Assembly (NCBI GenBank): GCA_017415715.1
Contig: JAFQFD010000001.1
Span: 20,605 to 84,604 of the forward strand
DNA length: 64,000 nt
Source: Bacteroidales bacterium
GTDB lineage: Bacteria; Bacteroidota; Bacteroidia; Bacteroidales; UBA932
Reading direction: 5' to 3'
Every line of letters starts with the position of its first letter. The first letter of the stretch is position 1. Both the position numbers and the translations under genes were made by a program. The notes under the pieces are model-generated. The model did not search any database. It saw nothing but the letters and a program-made list of their open reading frames with translations, and was not told where the DNA came from. Shown here piece by piece: positions 56,272 to 64,000 of this stretch.

Positions 56272-56343
56272 GGTCGGTTCGTATAACGGTTAGTACTCAA
56301 GATTCTCAATCTTGCAATAGGGGTTCGATTCCCCTACCGACTA
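56272..56343 (+). tRNA. tRNA-Glu (anticodon CTC)
   Basis: 72 bases from GGTCGGTTCG. The anticodon stem CAAGA/TCTTG holds the loop TTCTCAA with anticodon CTC at 56305-56307. The T arm is AGGGGTTCGATTCCCCT. The acceptor pairs well except for a G1-U72 wobble. CCA is not encoded. It reads GAG codons only. Confidence 0.93.
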
Positions 56344-56348
56344 CAAAG

Positions 56349-56371
56349 AGCAGTCAGCAGACTGCTTTTTT
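56349..56371 (+). terminator. terminator after tRNA-Glu
   Basis: AGCAGTC, loop AGCA, GACTGCT, then TTTTT. It separates the two tRNA genes, which are thus probably independent transcripts. Confidence 0.85.
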
Positions 56372-56391
56372 ACTAAAGTTCTAAAACATAC

Positions 56392-56468
56392 GGGGGTATA
56401 GCTCAGTTGGCTAGAGCGCCTGCTTTGCAAGCAGGAAGTCGTCGGTTCGACTCCGACTATCTCCACCA
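56392..56468 (+). tRNA. tRNA-Ala (anticodon TGC), CCA encoded
   Basis: 77 bases from GGGGGTATAGCTCAG to the encoded CCA (56466-56468). The anticodon stem CCTGC/GCAGG holds the loop TTTGCAA with anticodon TGC. The G3-U70 identity pair is kept. The T arm is GTCGGTTCGACTCCGAC. Confidence 0.97.
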
Positions 56469-56523: not shown

Positions 56524-56562
56524 TGTACCCACATTGTACCCACATTTTGAATGTACCCACTT
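56524..56562 (+). repeat. three 11-bp repeats TGTACCCACAT downstream of tRNA-Ala
   Basis: Copies at 56524-56534 and 56535-56545 are identical and adjacent. A third, TGTACCCACTT, is at 56552-56562 after a six-base gap. They stand 55 bases after the tRNA-Ala CCA end, where integrase arm sites or att sequences are usual. Confidence 0.75.
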
Positions 56563-56794: not shown

Positions 56795-57301
56795 ATGACA
56801 CAGTTGTCTATAGTGTTCGAGAGGATTCTCGATAGTATTCAGAAGGTGTTCAGCAATCTTTTCGGCTGGATCATCGCTGTTTTCACGGCTTATCTTTCTT
56901 GGCTTGGTGATGATTCGGGAAGTATTCTTCTTGTGATTGTTGCTTTGGTGTGGGATATGGCTTGGGGAATTGCAGCTGCTATGAAGCGGCATAATTTCGT
57001 TTTGTCTTATCTTTTGCGTGAGACTTTTTGTAAGATCATTGTTTATGTCGGTGCTATGAGCATTGTTCTTTTTGCGGAGAGGATGCTGGGGCTGACTTCG
57101 GGGCTTACTGTCAGGATCATTGCGGTTATCGCTACTTCTGTGGAGTTGTTTTCTTCTGCAGGAAATATTCTCATTATCAAGCCGGATTTTGTTTTTGTCC
57201 GGTTTTTCGGGAAATACCTTGTCGGGGAGATTGCTGACAAGATGAAGATTTCCCACGATGAGGCTCGTCAGATGTTGGATGGAAATTTTAGTAAGGAGTA
57301 G
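56795..57301 (+). CDS. phage holin family protein
   Basis: The 168-residue membrane protein has about four hydrophobic segments (about 23-38, 43-65, 77-95, 100-125). The central motif VALVWDMAWGIAAAMKRHNF followed by LLRETFCKIIVYVG matches the toxin-secretion/phage-lysis holin family, whose usual form is a DxxxGxxxA motif in a helix pair. It is the first gene of a three-gene cassette with endolysin and spanin-like genes. Codons here are clearly richer in T at third positions than in the core genes to the left, suggesting foreign origin. Confidence 0.85.
   Translation: MTQLSIVFERILDSIQKVFSNLFGWIIAVFTAYLSWLGDDSGSILLVIVALVWDMAWGIAAAMKRHNFVLSYLLRETFCKIIVYVGAMSIVLFAERMLGLTSGLTVRIIAVIATSVELFSSAGNILIIKPDFVFVRFFGKYLVGEIADKMKISHDEARQMLDGNFSKE
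57293..57298 (+). promoter_or_regulatory. Shine-Dalgarno site before the endolysin gene
   Basis: AAGGAG, eight bases before the ATG at 57307 and inside the end of the holin gene. Core genes in this window mostly lack such sites. Confidence 0.75.
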
Positions 57302-57306
57302 CTGCT

Positions 57307-57753
57307 ATGGAAAGAAATGAGATTCTTAAAAAGATAAAGCAGTTTTTCAGTATTGAAGAGTTGGTTTGTCCTCATGCGTATCGGAAGTGGGGTCAGCGTG
57401 CCTGGCAGTTTCTTGATACGGATTTTCTTGAGACTTTGTATGTGATCAGAAAGGACATTCTTGGTGTGCCGATGTATTGTAATGTGGGAGATTATACGCA
57501 GAGGGGGCTTCGTTGCAATAAGTGTAAGATGGTCGCGAATAAGAGTGTGTCGTATCTGTCTGCTCATGTGCTTGGTAAGGCAGGAGATTTCTCTGTTGAT
57601 GGGATGACTGCTGCAGAGGCACGGAAAAAGATAATCGAGAATGCCGACAAGCTTCCGCATCAGATCCGGATGGAGGCGAATGTTGCCTGGTTGCATATCG
57701 ATGTGCTGGAGCAGTATGGTGTTGATGAGAGGATCCATCTTTTTGAGCAGTAA
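57307..57753 (+). CDS. peptidase M15-type endolysin
   Basis: The 148-residue protein resembles phage L,D- or D,D-endopeptidases of family M15. The zinc-site candidates are SAHVLGKAGDF near residues 83-93 (the H-x6-D pattern) and WLHIDV near 127-132, which supplies the third ligand and the general base. FSIEELVCPHAYRKWG near residue 14-29 is typical of the start of such enzymes. It has no signal peptide, so it needs the holin to reach the cell wall. It follows the holin after 5 bases and ends 3 bases before the spanin-like gene. Confidence 0.85.
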   Translation: MERNEILKKIKQFFSIEELVCPHAYRKWGQRAWQFLDTDFLETLYVIRKDILGVPMYCNVGDYTQRGLRCNKCKMVANKSVSYLSAHVLGKAGDFSVDGMTAAEARKKIIENADKLPHQIRMEANVAWLHIDVLEQYGVDERIHLFEQ

Positions 57754-57756
57754 GTG

Positions 57757-58242
57757 ATGAGACGGATCTTTTTATTTATGGCCATAGCATTGCTATGCTC
57801 TTCTTGTGCTACTTGCTGGAACTGCCGAAACATTGCCCTAAACTCTACTGATAAGAGGGATTCGGTCATTATAAAGGAGACTATCGTTTATCGAGACAGT
57901 CTGATTCCGGTACTTGTCAAGGATACGACTGCCATTGTGCATACAGTACCGGCGGACACGGCCAGGGCGGAAACTGATCTTGCAAAGGCGAAAGCCTGGC
58001 TCGAAAGTGACAGTCTCAAGCTGACGATTACAAATAAACCAAGCCCGATTCCTCCTGTCAAGGTCAGTATTCCGGAGAAGGCAAAGACGGAACTCCGGAC
58101 ACAGACTATTAAAGAATTCAAGACGGTTGAAGTCAATCGGCTCACGCCCTGGCAGAAAGGTATGATTTCACTTGGGTATATCTTTATAGGTGTTTGTGTC
58201 TCGTTGATTGTATTCCTTTTGTTGAAACTCTTACGGAAATAA
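57757..58242 (+). CDS. spanin-like lipoprotein with C-terminal membrane helix (candidate u-spanin)
   Basis: From the ATG at 57757 the protein has 161 residues: a lipoprotein signal ending ALLCSSC (lipid-bearing Cys near residue 17), a polar central part with VIIKETIVYRDSLIPVL and AKAWLESDSLKLTITNKPS, and a C-terminal membrane helix (about 137-157) before KLLRK. An outer-membrane lipid anchor together with an inner-membrane helix in one chain is the architecture of unimolecular spanins, which fuse the two membranes at the end of phage lysis. The position after holin and endolysin agrees. A GTG at 57754 is an alternative start. The function is inferred from architecture. Confidence 0.7.
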   Translation: MRRIFLFMAIALLCSSCATCWNCRNIALNSTDKRDSVIIKETIVYRDSLIPVLVKDTTAIVHTVPADTARAETDLAKAKAWLESDSLKLTITNKPSPIPPVKVSIPEKAKTELRTQTIKEFKTVEVNRLTPWQKGMISLGYIFIGVCVSLIVFLLLKLLRK

Positions 58243-58333: not shown

Positions 58334-59038
58334 TTACTCGCCAGCTGCGGCATCTTCCTTAAGCGTAACCATTGTCATCATCTCTCCGGATTTTTCGCCG
58401 GTCTTGGTATTTACGAAGAAATACTTGATAAAGACTTTCGGACTGGTTGCGTTCGGAACTCCGTGCTTGTCGTCGTAGTCCTGCTTGATGTCGTACTCTT
58501 CGGTTACAGGCTCGAATACGTTGCCGATCTGGACTGCCTTGCTGTAGGCACGGGTAACACCGTTTGACTGCGGAGCTGATGCCTGGATGATGAGTTTGAG
58601 GTTTGCGACATCTGCCGGCTCTCCTTCGAGTTCGAATGTGAACTTGGTCGGCGTGAGGGTTACGATTGCTTCTGTCGGAGCCTCTACGCCCTGGAGTGCA
58701 GGAGGATTGCTGAGTGCTTCACCTCCGCAGGCTACGATCCAGTAGTTGAGACGTGAATAGAGGTTGGCTCCGGAGATCTTCGATGTGGTTCCGAGGACGG
58801 ACTTGCCGGCCTGGGTCTGTGCGAGGGCATTCCAAGCCAATATCTGTGCATTGGTCAGATTACGCCAGCTCTGCGACAGCTGCTTGAAGATGGATTTCAC
58901 GGCAGCCTGTGCAGCTGTTCTCGCTGCTCCACCGTAGCCACGATTGCGGATATACTTGCGACCACGCACCTTGGCTGCGGTCACACCCTTTGCGGAGCCT
59001 GACATTTCGTCGAAGGCGATTGAAGGAACATACTTCAT
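58334..59038 (-). CDS. paralogue A of a repeated phage-like family (234 aa)
   Basis: This is a 234-residue soluble protein with no signal. The N-terminal 110 residues hold a recognisable module: FDEMSGSAKGVTAAKVRGRKY, an Ala-rich TAAQ segment, LSQSWRNLTNAQILAWNALAQ, and ISGANLYSRLNYW. The C-terminal half is a beta-rich domain ending in the conserved FFVNTKTGEKSGEMMTMVTL. Genes B (59822-60892) and C (62042-62737) have the same two landmarks. From memory, similar SGxxG...TxAQ...LSxxWRxLTxxQxxAWN...SGxNLF proteins occur in phage and uncultured-bacteria sequences without known function. It is last in the minus-strand cluster. Confidence 0.8.
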   Translation of the reverse strand: MKYVPSIAFDEMSGSAKGVTAAKVRGRKYIRNRGYGGAARTAAQAAVKSIFKQLSQSWRNLTNAQILAWNALAQTQAGKSVLGTTSKISGANLYSRLNYWIVACGGEALSNPPALQGVEAPTEAIVTLTPTKFTFELEGEPADVANLKLIIQASAPQSNGVTRAYSKAVQIGNVFEPVTEEYDIKQDYDDKHGVPNATSPKVFIKYFFVNTKTGEKSGEMMTMVTLKEDAAAGE

Positions 59039-59087
59039 AATTTGTTAAGTGTTTTTAAGGGGTTAATATTTTGTTTTACGCGCGTTT

Positions 59088-59807
59088 CTATTTGTTTCTC
59101 ACACAAACAGCATACAGGAAATGATCTCTCGGCATACCGCCCCAGCCGAACTGAATATTCTTGACTGTCAGCACTGCATTCCTGATAGTTGCCTGAAGCA
59201 TATCACAGCCATAGACCTGGACACTGTTCACATTGTCGCCGACAAATGGCAGCTCAACATCCACATCATCCGGAAATCCAGACAACTCCACAACATCATC
59301 AAAGGGATTGACTTCTGAGTTGTATCTGCCGGTCATCAGACCTATCAAACACCAGTTGTCATCGACATAACAGGTCTTATAATATCCATAGTTGTTCTGC
59401 GAAGTCGTATTGTTCAGAGTCAGTTTGGTCTCTGTTCCACACTCAAACACTCCACGCTGACCTTTCGGAACATAGAGGCTGAGAAGATAGATTGTGTATT
59501 CATCCGTCTGCTCCGGCCAGTAGTCGAGTTTCTCAATGCAGACAGTCTTGCTGTTCTTCAACCAGGTCTTCACAGTCGTTCCATAAAACTTGCCCTCTGT
59601 CTCGAACATTATATATGCACCGCTCATTCCGCTTTTTGGAATCGAGAGTTCCGGCACATAGACTTCAAGGACAGAAGCTGCAGCAAACGCCTCAGACTTG
59701 TTGCTGAACGAAAACTTACCGTTCAAGACAACCAGTTTCTCATTCTGGAAGGTGTTCAGGATGATTTCTCCTGCACCGAAATTATTTCTTGTAGATGTGA
59801 TATTCAT
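59088..59807 (-). CDS. hypothetical protein, 239 aa, phage-cluster associated
   Basis: This is a soluble, beta-rich protein of 239 residues with no signal peptide. It begins with NITSTRNNFGAGEIILNTFQ and contains FAAASVLEVYVPELSIPKS near residues 40-58 and a C-terminal LTVKNIQFGWGGMPRD. It does not share the SGSAK/TAAQ module of its neighbours. It lies between paralogues A and B (gaps 49 and 14 bases) on the same strand, so co-expression is likely. I do not recognise a family with certainty; the beta-strand pattern would suit a virion or adhesive protein. Confidence 0.7.
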   Translation of the reverse strand: MNITSTRNNFGAGEIILNTFQNEKLVVLNGKFSFSNKSEAFAAASVLEVYVPELSIPKSGMSGAYIMFETEGKFYGTTVKTWLKNSKTVCIEKLDYWPEQTDEYTIYLLSLYVPKGQRGVFECGTETKLTLNNTTSQNNYGYYKTCYVDDNWCLIGLMTGRYNSEVNPFDDVVELSGFPDDVDVELPFVGDNVNSVQVYGCDMLQATIRNAVLTVKNIQFGWGGMPRDHFLYAVCVRNK

Positions 59808-59821
59808 AGCTGATTCTCTGA

Positions 59822-60892
59822 TTAAAGTTTATAAATCGGTGCAGATCCGAATACCTCTGCCAATTCTGACTCATACTGTCCTGCTCGATGTGCAAATGTT
59901 CCCTCAGTTTCTCCCTGCCATGTCTGAATCCACACTGCGAAAAGGTTAGGACGAGCCATCCAATTCCGCTCAGGATTAGAACAACGACCAAGAACATAGG
60001 CTTCCAAGTTTGGAATGCTTTTGTTGACTTTCTTGAGAGTGAACTGACCGGAAGCAACTCCCGTGTCATTTGAATATTGAGCATCCACTGACAGAATGGT
60101 AGAGCCATGCGACAGCTCAAAATCAAGAGTTTCGAATCCCTGACTGTCTGCAACCTCATTAAGAGTTACCCTGGCACGCGGAGTATATTCAGCGGCATAC
60201 GCTGTCGAACTCTCCTTGCAAACCGCACTGATGGCCATAGATTCGCCCGTGAAGCCGGTCTTCTTGTCAAGCCAATAGAACTCACAGAAATACTTCTTGC
60301 CAGCCTCTGGTGCTACGCCCATAACCGACGTATAAAGAGCTGTCAAATCTGCATCGCCCCAATCGGGAGCCATGCCAGGAGTGATGATGACAGTCTGACC
60401 CCATCCGGAAGACACTCCAGGACTGAGCGCCGGAGTCATCTTGAACACAAGCACATGACTCTCTGACGGCTGCTGCAGACCAGTAAACACAATCATATCC
60501 GGAGAAATCCAAAGGTCATCATATATAACCTCAGGAACATCGTTCAGATACACCGGAGCATCAGTAAGCATAGGCTCACCGACCATCTGCAGATTGGTGT
60601 TGATTCTGACAAATGCGTTATGCGGAGTAAGTTCTGCAGCCTGGCCGAATGTCGAGATACCTTTCATCTTCTCTGCAAGAACAGCCCATCCGTTCATCTG
60701 AACAGATGTGAGTTTCTTATATGTTCTGGAGATTTTTGATAGGCGGTTTCGTGAGGTCGCTTGTGCAGGAGTCACGACCTTTGAATGTTGGGCTTTGCTT
60801 GACAGGATATTCCTGCCCTTGACATTCCTGGCAGTAACATCCTTTGCGGATCCGGCGAAGTCGCTGAATGCGATAGAGGGTTTGACAATCAT
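59822..60892 (-). CDS. paralogue B of the repeated phage-like family (356 aa)
   Basis: The N-terminal module repeats that of A: IAFSDFAGSAKDVTARNVKGR, TPAQATSRNRLSKISRTYKKLT, MNGWAVLAEKMKG, then HNAFVRINTN in place of SGANLYSRLN. The second domain ends in FYWLDKKTGFTGESMAISAV, the counterpart of the A motif near its C-terminus. B then has an extra domain of about 120 residues (from about residue 240) with LDFELSHGSTILSVDAQYS and a Trp-rich end, absent from A and C. Upstream there is a 178-base gap with a terminator from the hydrolase gene, so B probably has its own promoter. Confidence 0.8.
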   Translation of the reverse strand: MIVKPSIAFSDFAGSAKDVTARNVKGRNILSSKAQHSKVVTPAQATSRNRLSKISRTYKKLTSVQMNGWAVLAEKMKGISTFGQAAELTPHNAFVRINTNLQMVGEPMLTDAPVYLNDVPEVIYDDLWISPDMIVFTGLQQPSESHVLVFKMTPALSPGVSSGWGQTVIITPGMAPDWGDADLTALYTSVMGVAPEAGKKYFCEFYWLDKKTGFTGESMAISAVCKESSTAYAAEYTPRARVTLNEVADSQGFETLDFELSHGSTILSVDAQYSNDTGVASGQFTLKKVNKSIPNLEAYVLGRCSNPERNWMARPNLFAVWIQTWQGETEGTFAHRAGQYESELAEVFGSAPIYKL

Positions 60893-60989
60893 AGGACTAA
60901 ATCATTACATTTCACTCAATTACAGAGGCAAATGTAATATTCCGTCCAAACAATCCAAATTCCTGCAGAGTTTTCAGAAAAACACATAG

Positions 60990-61027
60990 AAAAAGCAGGA
61001 GCAATGCTGTCAAACACTGCTCCTGCT
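60990..61027 (-). terminator. terminator after the hydrolase gene
   Basis: On the minus strand AGCAGGAGCA pairs perfectly with TGCTCCTGCT around 14 bases, then TTTT follows. It ends the transcript of the 61071-61997 gene. Confidence 0.9.
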
Positions 61028-61070
61028 GATATTAGGTTTGCCCGATAAACGGGAATTTAACGAACACTAT

Positions 61071-61997
61071 TTACAGATTCTTTCTGCTCACATCCTGCCA
61101 GCTTTCATTATTTAGTATCTCCGCATCGGAGCCGATAAAGCATTTTCCCGCCTCGGCGTCGTCGCAGAGCCAATAGCGCATCCAGGCTGTCATATAGGCA
61201 TTGCCACGTGGTAGCATGTCGCTGTGGTCAATGCCTTTGATGCGCCCCATAATACGTTGCTCCGATCCAATGCCTTCATAAGTTTTCTGCATCTCTTCCA
61301 ACCTGCAGCCGATCTTCGCGTCGAAGTCTCCGCAGCCGCCCATCAGCAGCATGGGAGCCTTCACGTCTTTCAGGAAGTCTGCGCCAAGGCTGTCAACAAG
61401 CATGGTCGCGGTGCCGCTTTGGGCGCAGAGAGCTCTGTACAGGCGGCTGTTCTCAAATAGTGAAGCGGATGTATAGATGCACATACCCCCTTGTGAATGC
61501 CCGGTCAGGCCAACGTGTGTCGTATCCACTTTCTGATAGAAGATACTCGACGGGTCGGCATTTGCCCTCAACATCATGTCAAGTGACTTGCTGACGGATT
61601 TGCCGTCCCACGTCCACTCGTCTTCATTGCCTACTACGATGAAGCCCCAGGAAGCCAGATGTTGGAAGATGGCTTTGTACTTGGACGCCCGTATGCCCGT
61701 TCCATTCGCCATGAGTACCAAGGGCCATGCCCTCTGTTCGGTCTTCAAATCAGTAGGATAATACACCTGGAGAAGTTTGATTCGCTCGTCGCTGTCTTCC
61801 TGTGTGAACAACTCCACCTGGTAGTCTCCGTCGTAAGCATACTTTTTCTCCCATGCTCCCGGGTAATCAAACTTGTTCTGATATCCATTGGCAACGGCCT
61901 GAATCTTATCCCAGAATGAGCCGCAAGAGGTGCAGAATGTCATTGTTATTATAGACAACATCGCACGCACAACCGTCTTCCAAAACCTAACAAACAT
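61071..61997 (-). CDS. lipoprotein alpha/beta-hydrolase (dienelactone hydrolase/chlorophyllase-like)
   Basis: The 308-residue protein has a lipoprotein signal ending MTFCTSCGSF, so it should be membrane-anchored outside the cytosol. The hydrolase fold follows, with oxyanion stretch VLMANGTGI near residue 92-100, nucleophile Ser in GLTGHSQGGM, Asp candidate in GGCGDFDAK and His in IKGIDHSDML. It probably hydrolyses esters or lactones; the substrate is unknown. It lies between paralogues B and C of the repeat family but ends in its own terminator, and looks like a passenger (moron-like) gene. Confidence 0.85.
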   Translation of the reverse strand: MFVRFWKTVVRAMLSIITMTFCTSCGSFWDKIQAVANGYQNKFDYPGAWEKKYAYDGDYQVELFTQEDSDERIKLLQVYYPTDLKTEQRAWPLVLMANGTGIRASKYKAIFQHLASWGFIVVGNEDEWTWDGKSVSKSLDMMLRANADPSSIFYQKVDTTHVGLTGHSQGGMCIYTSASLFENSRLYRALCAQSGTATMLVDSLGADFLKDVKAPMLLMGGCGDFDAKIGCRLEEMQKTYEGIGSEQRIMGRIKGIDHSDMLPRGNAYMTAWMRYWLCDDAEAGKCFIGSDAEILNNESWQDVSRKNL

Positions 61998-62041
61998 ATA
62001 AATCCCGATTTATTTGTGCAAGATAGTGATTTTCTAATAAT

Positions 62042-62737
62042 TCAGACCTGAAATCCCACAGAAATCTGTTTCCAGTGGGTGCGATATCCAGTTTGGGAGT
62101 CGATGAGAAAGTATCTGATATGTGCTTTGTACTCAGGAAGATTTAGATTCCAGAGGGTTTTGTAATCGTGGATGAGAAAGGCGACGAGTTCCTGGTTGTC
62201 TTGTATTGGAACCGATAGGAACGATCTCATCAAGCCTGGTCTGACACCACCGCCGGGAAATGTCAGCTGGACCTTGGCCACTATCCGGAAACGGTCGTCT
62301 GTGTTCTTGCTGAATATCATCAGCAGATCCTTTTCCTCTACTACGATGGCCGAGTCAAAGGTGATCGAGAACTGAGGGAACGATATGAATGGTTTAGGCT
62401 CCGGAGTGTGTTCATTGCCCAGCTGTGCAAATCCGTGATAGGCACTGACGAAGAGATTATAACCGCTGATGTGGCTGCAAGGGTTGAATGGTGGTCTTCT
62501 TGAGGGAACGCCTTTGGCTATGGCCGTCCACTCCAGTTGCTCATCGTGGTCGAGTTTACGCCAGGCATCGAGTGCCCTGCGATGCAGTCCTGAGTTGTAT
62601 GATTGTGCCGGTGTGTTCTGGAACACTGTTGTGGGTTTTGTCCTCCAGTAGCATTTCCCGTTTCGATGATAGAATGATATGTTCCCCATCGAGCCCCAGC
62701 AGTCTAAAAATCTTGTGTTTGGGTTGTAGAGTGGCAT
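62042..62737 (-). CDS. paralogue C of the repeated phage-like family (231 aa)
   Basis: This is the most divergent copy: GSMGNISFYHRNGKCYWRTK replaces the SGSAK region, then FQNTPAQ, LDAWRKLDHDEQLEWTAIAKG and HISGYNLFVSAYHG keep the TxAQ / WRxL / xWxxxA / SGxNLF order of A and B. The C-terminal half is beta-rich and ends YFLIDSQTGYRTHWKQISVGF, matching the ending motif of A and the internal one of B. It is the first gene on the minus strand after the non-coding right end, and the hydrolase follows after 44 bases. Confidence 0.78.
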   Translation of the reverse strand: MPLYNPNTRFLDCWGSMGNISFYHRNGKCYWRTKPTTVFQNTPAQSYNSGLHRRALDAWRKLDHDEQLEWTAIAKGVPSRRPPFNPCSHISGYNLFVSAYHGFAQLGNEHTPEPKPFISFPQFSITFDSAIVVEEKDLLMIFSKNTDDRFRIVAKVQLTFPGGGVRPGLMRSFLSVPIQDNQELVAFLIHDYKTLWNLNLPEYKAHIRYFLIDSQTGYRTHWKQISVGFQV

Positions 62738-64000
62738 TGTGTTCTGTGTTTCCGGCGAAGGTAATGTTTGGGGCGGAGATTTCCATATTGTGCAGGATAA
62801 GGAAGAAAGGGAGTGTAATTATAGGCGAAGTCTTAACCACAGAGGTAATTCATAGGGTGTTTCGCCAGGGTTTATATGTATATATGTATGTCGCCGGCAA
62901 GTCTTCCGGGCGGGGCACGACGGTGAGTTCAGCACCGACGCGGAAGCGTCCGTCAGCTCTCTTTGGCCTATGGTGTTTGACGACGGTTTTCGCGTCCGCG
63001 ACAGCGGATGCGGAAACTGACGGCAAATGCCATAGGGGGCAAGCCCGTAGGGCGCGGCAGGAGCCGGACGCACTGAGGTTCGAGCGGGAGATAGGGGTCT
63101 TTCCGGCTCTGGCACTTACGGTGATTAAGAACTACAAACGCCACGACCTTGATGCGTACCTTGGCGAGTCTGTGGGATTTATGGAGAGGAGCGACAGCGG
63201 AACGGAATAAATCACACAGTCTCGCCCTGCCCGCCCTCGGAAGATTTGAAAGACTTTTTGAGCAGCAAAAAGACTTTCAAGTCTGGAGAGGAAAAAGCGG
63301 GCAGTATTGACAACATCGGCGAAAGCCGATACCTTGCCTACGGAAGGCTTTTATGACTGACTGAGCTTGCGAAGGAAGTGATAAAAGACTGGAGAAGGCC
63401 CGCGGCTGCGCCGCTAAGGCTGGCAATTCCTTTTGGACTTTCGGCCTGCAAAGAAGAGATATACAATCCCTTATCCACTGACATTCATTCGGAGAATACG
63501 CCTTACGCAACCATCGCCGAAAGTCCTAAGCCCCTCGACGGGCTTGGAGGCCGGGAGCCCTTGAGAGGGGCTCATTATTGCCAGCCGCCTCGACAGAGAG
63601 CATTAACGCACTTCCTTTCCAACGTGCTCTAACACAGCTCCTTAACATAATCGATATTGTGTAATCTGACGCCTGCAAGACGTTCTTTCGTGCGAATGTC
63701 TGCCACTAAACACCATCCTTTCAAGCGAGGAATACCGGTGGAAGTCTGTTACACAATTTAGGTCCGATTATGTTATGTTTCGGCCGGTCCGCACTATGGC
63801 TCAAGCGAGGCACGGCCTGCTCTCTGTCGGTCATTCTCCCCTGTGGGGTCGGGGGCATTGACCAGCTGGAGTCTTTTGGCTTTTGGAGGAGGAAATTTTG
63901 CATAAAGAACGCAGAGATTTTGTCCGTAGGCAAAATCGCGGAGTTCGCAAAATTTGCCGGGGGAAAAAGACGAAAGTCTCCAGACCGCTGTTTGTTTAAT
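62738..64000. other. 1.26 kb without a convincing gene; structured, GC-rich, mobile-element-like
   Basis: The only long frames here are shadows or have no family resemblance. One plus-strand frame ending at 63210 has a protein-like tail (VIKNYKRHDLDAYLGESVGF), which may be a gene remnant. The composition differs from the surroundings (GC-rich blocks at 62900-63100 and 63380-63430). Structures visible include GCGGC-TGC-GCCGC at 63402-63414 and the large inverted repeat listed separately. The overall look recalls the non-coding mobilisation region of Bacteroidales conjugative elements, which I cannot confirm without a search. Confidence 0.5.
63643..63775. repeat. long imperfect inverted repeat with internal hairpin
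   Basis: TAACATAATCG (63643-63653) and ATTGTGTAA (63656-63664) are mirrored by TTACACAAT (63749-63757) and CGATTATGTTA (63765-63775). The 84-base interior holds a hairpin AGACGTTC/GAATGTCT near 63678-63701. A direct repeat TCAAGCGAGG occurs at 63721-63730 and again just outside at 63801-63810. Confidence 0.8.

Follow-up and report, generated by a model that had tools for sequence, protein, structure and literature searches.

The region described here lies at one end of a 64,000-nucleotide stretch of DNA (the window) from a Bacteroidales bacterium of the UBA932 lineage (GenBank assembly GCA_017415715.1, contig JAFQFD010000001.1, positions 20,605 to 84,604 of the forward strand), and the end of the window is the end of the contig. 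A block of five genes, A, D, B, a hydrolase gene and C, occupies the minus strand, with coordinates as first read. It is flanked on one side by lysis-type genes and two transfer RNA (tRNA) genes, and on the other by conserved non-coding DNA that contains two inverted Xer-type sites. The reading favoured here, with moderate confidence, is that A, B and C, which constitute one anciently duplicated family, form together with D a conserved late-type block of integrative phage-like Bacteroidales elements of about 16–17 kb, and that the four proteins are positioned on the surface of a particle. The features of the region are the following.

56272..56344, plus strand: tRNA-Glu gene (ARAGORN, Rfam) at the chromosomal edge
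56392..56468, plus strand: tRNA-Ala gene (ARAGORN, Rfam), 3' end facing the element, the likely attachment site
56524..56545, plus strand: direct repeat with an 11-bp period, two copies of TGTACCCACAT, a putative integrase arm-type site (matched by 0 of 200 shuffles)
56795..57301, plus strand: holin-like membrane protein of 168 amino acids (aa), weak match to Pfam Phage_holin_4_1 (E 0.016, below the cut-off)
57307..57753, plus strand: endolysin, M15-type peptidase, 148 aa (PHROG 894 endolysin, E 1.1e-16)
57754..58242, plus strand: spanin-like lipoprotein, 162 aa, with a membrane segment at its C-terminus; a homologue of the spanin-like gene found in sister loci (E 3.7e-7)
58334..59038, minus strand: gene A, 234 aa; basic N-terminal segment, three-helix module and beta domain, predicted via alignment to B
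59088..59807, minus strand: gene D, 239 aa; two tandem beta-sandwich domains predicted by AlphaFold2
59822..60892, minus strand: gene B, 356 aa; N-terminal module (N-module), Ig/FN3-like part and extra C-terminal beta-sandwich at about 240–356, predicted by AlphaFold2
61071..61997, minus strand: PETase/PAF-AH-like alpha/beta hydrolase, 308 aa (Pfam PETase, E 8.1e-10)
62042..62737, minus strand: gene C, 231 aa, third paralogue (sequence, profile comparison)
62907..64000, plus strand: conserved non-coding block beside C, truncated by the contig end
63642..63664, minus strand: dif-like Xer site 1, TTACACAA-6 nt-TTATGTTAA
63749..63775, plus strand: dif-like Xer site 2, TTACACAA-11 nt-TTATGTTA, inverted relative to site 1, with an 85-nt loop between the two

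The gene positions and phage-like setting of the original prediction are borne out, as the coordinates agree and lysis-type genes adjoin the block. Its statement that no head, tail, terminase or integrase gene is nearby holds for the window, but the lysis genes (56795–58242) and the tRNA genes (56272–56468) had been overlooked.

The protein family and its conserved block

When A was used as a query in its own genome, B was matched at E 2.9e-20 and C at E 1.6e-3. Profiles built from 54 A, 51 B and 45 C sequences align significantly over nearly their full lengths in each pairing (A–B, E 1.2e-34; A–C, E 3.3e-11; B–C, E 7.5e-10). Judged by their sequences, A, B and C are homologous, with a likeness beyond chance, in agreement with the proposal of one family in three forms. 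The C-terminal ends NTKTG (A), DKKTG (B) and DSQTG (C) and the TxAQ steps that had been named as common motifs are present, whereas two others do not extend to B, which has YKKL in place of the WRxL of A and C, and HNAF in place of their GxNLY/F. The comparison of B and D profiles produced no alignment; D is unrelated to A, B and C by sequence and is beta-rich in its AlphaFold2 model, as had been predicted. Scans of the four proteins against Pfam, PHROGs and NCBIfam returned nothing meaningful, as did profile searches of PDB sequences. Assignment of each paralogue to a different known family had been named as an outcome that would speak against a common family, and no database family claims A, B or C.

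The gene order was determined with a simple purpose-written gene caller in related loci (numbered with L; genomes are numbered with G). Of 101 loci, 11 have a family protein identical to one in another locus; removing these leaves 90 non-redundant loci. Because many loci end at contig ends, gene counts per locus are lower bounds. Homologues of A, B and D were called in many loci, and the order B-D-A on one strand is found in 58 of the 58 non-redundant loci that have all three. Where C is also present, its strand is that of B in 39 loci and the other one in eight. Since each of A, B and C has its own ortholog group and the order of B, D and A is fixed across loci, the sequences indicate old, separate groups that were anciently duplicated rather than recent copies. 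Nei–Gojobori dN/dS was calculated for 11 sequence pairs, each from A, B, C, D or the gene of the spanin-like protein; ten pairs give 0.05–0.16 and the eleventh is saturated. The values are rough because dS is high (0.4–2.2), and show constraint only. By this measure, A, B, C, D and the spanin-like gene are under purifying selection. The suggestion that the repeated copies reflect recent diversification or changes in copy number is not supported, in view of the fixed order, the purifying selection and the separate ortholog groups.

The spanin-like gene is present in at least 46 of the 90 non-redundant loci, a gene for an 84-aa membrane protein in at least 36, an endolysin cluster in at least 22, and one or more lysis-type cluster genes in at least 64. 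The endolysins are of three unrelated types: Phage_lysozyme and Amidase_3 (both Pfam), and the M15 type (PHROG 894 in the window; cluster 28 by eye). The lipoprotein-like hydrolase has no homologue among the related loci compared and stands between B and C in this copy only; it is cargo of the window copy. A different gene, Abi-like by eye, occupies the same slot in L081, L085 and L094, and an Rfam match to abiF RNA lies just past A in L083 (6236–6272).

The AlphaFold2 model of B (51 sequences; pLDDT 81, pTM 0.63) contains a disordered or hairpin segment in the first 40 residues, three helices at 42–103, a beta domain at 126–224 and a C-terminal beta-sandwich at 240–356. The model of D (56 sequences; pLDDT 89.5, pTM 0.89) is formed of two beta-sandwiches. 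With B as the query, a search of predicted viral structures gave 11 hits at E ≤ 1e-3; the strongest has E 3.6e-5, and TM does not exceed 0.25 of the query. Among them are BIG2, FN3 and tail proteins, an adenovirus fibre and a reovirus sigma 1. The weak matches of D, above E 1e-3, include bicupins, the adenovirus fibre head and the STIV A223 turret protein; a known double-jelly-roll capsid protein is absent among its listed structural matches. Both models are beta-rich and suggest a weak likeness to fibre heads. A binding or surface role, as originally proposed, appears the most plausible in view of the Ig/FN3-like model of B, its weak fibre-head matches and the InlB-type repeats on some A homologues, whereas the toxin or immunity function offered as an alternative has found no positive evidence.

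A likeness of the N-module to the Bacteroidetes family DUF6266 (PF19781) was checked by profile comparison. The N-terminal half of a profile of ten DUF6266 sequences aligns to the N-modules of B (hhalign probability 67, E 5.1e-5) and C (probability 56, E 1.1e-4), but the profile does not align to A (probability 0.5) or D (probability 0.2). PF19781 has no match in A, B or C of the window, and none among 45 C and 51 B homologues at E ≤ 0.01. The family is present in ten of 60 genomes of the order, with no match in the genome of the window. A distant kinship, short of membership, is possible on these alignments. DUF6266 is not mentioned in the literature searched, which mostly excluded subscription papers and preprints.

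An integrative element at tRNA genes

It is well supported that the block is part of a mobile integrative element at the 3' ends of tRNA or transfer-messenger RNA (tmRNA) genes. ARAGORN identified 55 such genes in the 101 scanned loci. Within 3 kb of the block, 50 have their 3' ends directed toward it and one away from it (before redundancy removal). The 50 facing genes are spread over 46 loci, or 39 after redundancy removal, and include Ala, Glu, Arg, Phe, Cys, Leu, Met, Ser and Lys tRNAs as well as tmRNA. A direct repeat with a period of 11–12 bp (P ≤ 0.05 by shuffling) lies immediately inward of the tRNA end in 24 of 28 loci, and its sequence varies by locus; these repeats may be integrase arm sites. 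A repeat search as far as the contig end did not find a second copy of the tRNA-Ala end of the window.

The best-bounded copy, in genome G097, extends from a tRNA-Phe gene to an integrase gene. The tRNA-Phe end is repeated (13 nt) 190 bp outside the integrase, and the two ends are 16.6 kb apart. The mobility and regulation genes of this element encode an integrase (Phage_integrase), a Cro/C1-type repressor and an HTH protein homologous to the HTH_17 protein of locus L009; its replication and defence genes encode DUF6371, an AAA_25 primase/helicase-like ATPase, McrBC and a C5 methylase. The element further holds C, the non-coding block, B, D, genes for two membrane proteins, A and an amidase gene. 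Among the scanned proteins of this element, no capsid, portal, terminase, packaging ATPase, head or tail protein was recognised; the terminase, portal and HK97-type capsid protein of Caudoviricetes are thus not found, and neither are a rolling-circle Rep or known capsid protein like those of Microviridae or Finnlakeviridae. In locus L128, a repeat identical at 29 of 30 nt at a tRNA-Arg gene bounds a 5.47-kb unit; its only genes are C, B, D and A, and the rest is non-coding. A weak tRNA-Phe repeat in locus L041 was judged spurious because it lies within the non-coding block.

Loci L226, L228 and L204 add three integrase-bearing copies, and the integrase of L226 was found in a longer stretch about 12 kb beyond C. 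The idea that the inverted Xer-type sites account for missing integrases was rejected, since longer stretches show integrases past the 10-kb flank and arm-type repeats lie beside tRNA genes in the 24 loci mentioned above. At the non-coding end of four tRNA- or cargo-bearing loci, proteins match Eco57I, T5orf172, N6_N4_Mtase, NOV_C, Peptidase_C13 and DUF2971, and four of ten are unmatched. On the viral contigs L137 (7231–12450) and L204 (8163–17446), the block or C adjoins the integrase of a larger prophage-like region.

The genome of the window contains a second block on contig C35, with an A protein 88% identical. This copy (G000:C35:91449-96892; L009 11447–16895) is diverged, has rep and integrase genes beside it, an inverted C and its own hairpin, and the contig ends soon after. 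Matches to A at E ≤ 1e-3 are present in 37 of the 101 genomes of the genus, the own genome among them (before redundancy removal). In a phylum-wide draw, the A profile matches one of 148 genomes at E ≤ 1e-5, the own genome only. A scan of GTDB contigs identified 167 stretches encoding relatives of A, 80 of which were kept; by record title, these belong to Bacteroidales, including Candidatus Cryptobacteroides, Rikenellaceae, Alistipes, Muribaculum and Prevotellaceae, and one to Oscillospiraceae. Three of 2.9 million viral contigs were matched in three scans (A query, B profile and C profile), and no plasmid was matched by the A query, the only one used. No literature on these elements was found in a search that mostly excluded subscription papers and preprints, and the element family is apparently undescribed.

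The non-coding block and its inverted Xer-type sites

The non-coding DNA beside C is about 1–2 kb long, with 75–90% DNA identity between species. Only two copies are present in the genome of the window, both beside C. Of 115 loci, 59 yielded the core in iterated nhmmer searches. The centre of the core is formed of two inverted dif-like sites; a pattern that permits centres of 4–8 and 9–13 nt detected them in 35 of the 111 loci examined, which represent 33 distinct contexts, and a reversed-sequence control gave none. The centre of site 1 is 6 nt long in all 35 loci, that of site 2 is 10–12 nt, and the loop measures 8–89 nt.

The centres of the two sites are complementary at 65 of 72 positions in 12 distinct pairs, compared with a mean of 50.4 when re-dealt, and none of 5000 re-dealings reaches 65. 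In 30 aligned sequences, 91.7% of cells pair, and the covariation is 0.418 versus 0.147 for shuffled and at most 0.139 for slid alignments; the number of further pair types is a weak measure, reached by 26 of 500 shuffles. This pattern indicates that the stem is kept by pairing beyond the Xer arms. As single-stranded DNA (ssDNA), the window hairpin has a modest folding score (z -2.1; two of 100 shuffles as good), and that of L039 is stronger (z -5.8). In the 5.47-kb unit of L128 (12150–12190), the XerD arms are kept and the XerC arms are replaced by a new perfect stem.

A single-copy site, TTACACAA-N6-TTATGTTAA, occurs in 60 of the 101 genus genomes (reversed-pattern control 0), with the centre TTTATA in 52 of the 60 and TGCACA in the own genome (C35:31249). 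It is taken as the chromosomal dif site because its XerD arm is identical to that of Vibrio cholerae dif, given as TTATGTTAA in PMC3089051. On G000:C35, G013:C8, G097:C2 and G123:C44, the block and the putative dif share a contig and are about 54–122 kb apart; short contigs would bias any reading of this as clustering near the terminus.

The attachment site of CTXphi, attP(+), is formed of two inverted dif-like sites with centres of 6–7 and 12 nt, about 90 bp apart (PMC3089051, Table II). The layout with unequal centres is shared by the sites described here (6 and 10–12 nt, 8–89 nt apart), which also have a stem conserved by pairing. These similarities suggest that the hairpin acts as an Xer attachment site when folded as a single strand. 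Unlike attP(+), it lies inside elements that are apparently positioned at tRNA genes by their own integrase. Speaking against a simple CTXphi-type process, no hairpin copy was found at dif, and no related locus compared has a further dif-type site beside the block. The covariation fits RNA as well as folded ssDNA, and the non-coding block may have an RNA function; Rfam identified no family over the block in the window and seven loci. Among viral contigs, 46 stretches contain the long-centre dif pattern; with two contigs found by C added, the full core is present only in L203 and L204, and the remaining stretches have single short core matches at E 0.026 or worse.

Nature of the element and role of A–D

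The element is best read as a phage satellite or an unrecognised tailless phage, with A–D as late surface proteins. Satellites are defined in PMC13376191 and PMC10803314. The G097 element corresponds to an integrative element of about 7–20 kb with integrase and replication genes (16.6 kb, AAA_25, DUF6371). Of the phage structural genes that satellites lack, none was recognised in it, though A–D may be structural. Satellites such as PICI and PICMI share with it the size class, integrase, repressor or HTH protein, replication genes, fixed chromosomal sites and defence cargo. In contrast to them, the element carries lysis-type genes of its own as well as four late-type proteins that are beta-rich and conserved, and its host order is not named for satellites in the available parts of these papers.

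The element would reside at the 3' end of a tRNA or tmRNA gene, kept silent by its repressor. Upon induction, its tyrosine integrase would excise it, and the AAA_25 primase/helicase-like protein and the DUF6371 protein would replicate it. Expression of the B-D-holin-spanin-A operon and the endolysin would then be followed by bursting of the cell. A, B and C may bind the particle via their shared N-module and display an Ig/FN3-like domain, with B also displaying a fibre-head-like domain, so that A–D would form the adsorption surface of the particle carrying the element. If the element is a satellite, this particle would belong to a helper phage. The element and the hairpin are well supported; for the proteins, the role is a proposal drawn from their genes and models.

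Several observations weigh against this reading. Particle, excision and lysis are all read from genes and models. Among 50,697 phage records, A has no match, and B and C have matches only at E 2–9, none credible; the role is thus not anchored by a virion protein of known function. A match of the C N-module in a Phocaeicola phage, in a 3,105-nt gene downstream of a terminase, reached only E 3. The structural matches of B are weak, and the search of PDB and BFVD with D gave none at E ≤ 1e-3. The holin and spanin calls in the window are weak as well, the latter matching the PHROG spanin only at E 0.78. Loci L125, L129 and L133 lack D and have a different order of lysis genes; their A-like proteins are about 600 aa long with a long C-terminal extension, which in L125 consists of InlB-type repeats (Pfam Flg_new_2, E 1.1e-54). 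A convincing repeat of the tRNA end on the far side is absent from 15 of 17 tRNA-bearing loci tested, and the integrase model matches in 14 of 101 loci within the fetched flanks.

It is possible, though clearly less probable than the favoured reading, that the element is an autonomous tailless temperate phage, in which A–D are virion proteins (capsid, spike and vertex) with folds unrecognised by present libraries. Lysis-type genes of its own, present in many copies of the element, would be of little use to a pure parasite, and A–D are the only other conserved non-replication genes. D is modelled as a 240-residue double beta-sandwich, with the archaeal virus turret protein and fibre heads among its weak matches. 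The size of 16–17 kb, integrase and defence locus resemble those of Vibrio tailless prophages, which are 12–15 kb long and have integrases and a defence locus (PMC11630473). The use of dif resembles that of small ssDNA phages of Bacteroidetes, among them a temperate tailless phage of Flavobacterium at dif (PMC9719478); some microvirus proviruses of Bacteroidetes carry an extra inverted dif-like site (PMC3091885). The element shares small size, phylum and a link to dif/Xer with microvirus and PhiCjT23-like proviruses (PMC3091885, PMC9719478), but it is larger, has a tyrosine integrase and tRNA sites, and neither a rolling-circle Rep nor a known capsid protein was recognised in it. Against autonomy, no packaging ATPase was recognised in G097, the listed matches of D lack a known double-jelly-roll capsid protein, the L128 unit is without lysis genes, and A, the most conserved protein, is unlike a capsid protein in sequence. 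A bolder and slightly less probable form of this explanation is an unrecognised small temperate phage of gut Bacteroidales with a particle made of A–D and two routes into chromosomes: double-stranded DNA would enter at tRNA genes through the phage integrase, and folded ssDNA through host XerC/XerD. Having no known hallmark gene, such a phage lineage would be invisible to virus-finding tools.

It is unlikely that the block is the distal tail-fibre and lysis end of tailed prophages, as a remnant or by exchange. On L137 and L204 it stands beside the integrase of a larger prophage-like stretch, with a terminase large subunit by eye in L204, and the model of B weakly matches tail and FN3 proteins. 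However, the matches are three among 2.9 million viral contigs compared with 167 genome stretches encoding A relatives, head and tail genes were not recognised in the resolved G097 element, and conserved gene order and purifying selection argue against debris. Less likely still, A–D could be lysis-released effectors or bacteriocin-like proteins carried by the element, as the adjoining lysis-type genes and modular C-termini (InlB-type repeats, the extra domain of B) would allow, but no toxin or immunity family was matched in the Pfam, PHROGs and NCBIfam scans or the G097 protein scans, no small immunity-type partner is conserved, and the retention of four proteins together points to an assembly.

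The satellite or tailless-phage reading concerns a protein family that is otherwise unnamed and is present in more than a third of the genus genomes (37 of 101), in mobile elements barely represented in standard viral collections (three contigs). If A–D build or coat a particle, then a class of phages or satellites that is common in the gut has escaped notice. A folded Xer hairpin in integrase-bearing elements at tRNA genes would represent a second, unexpected use of the strategy of CTXphi.

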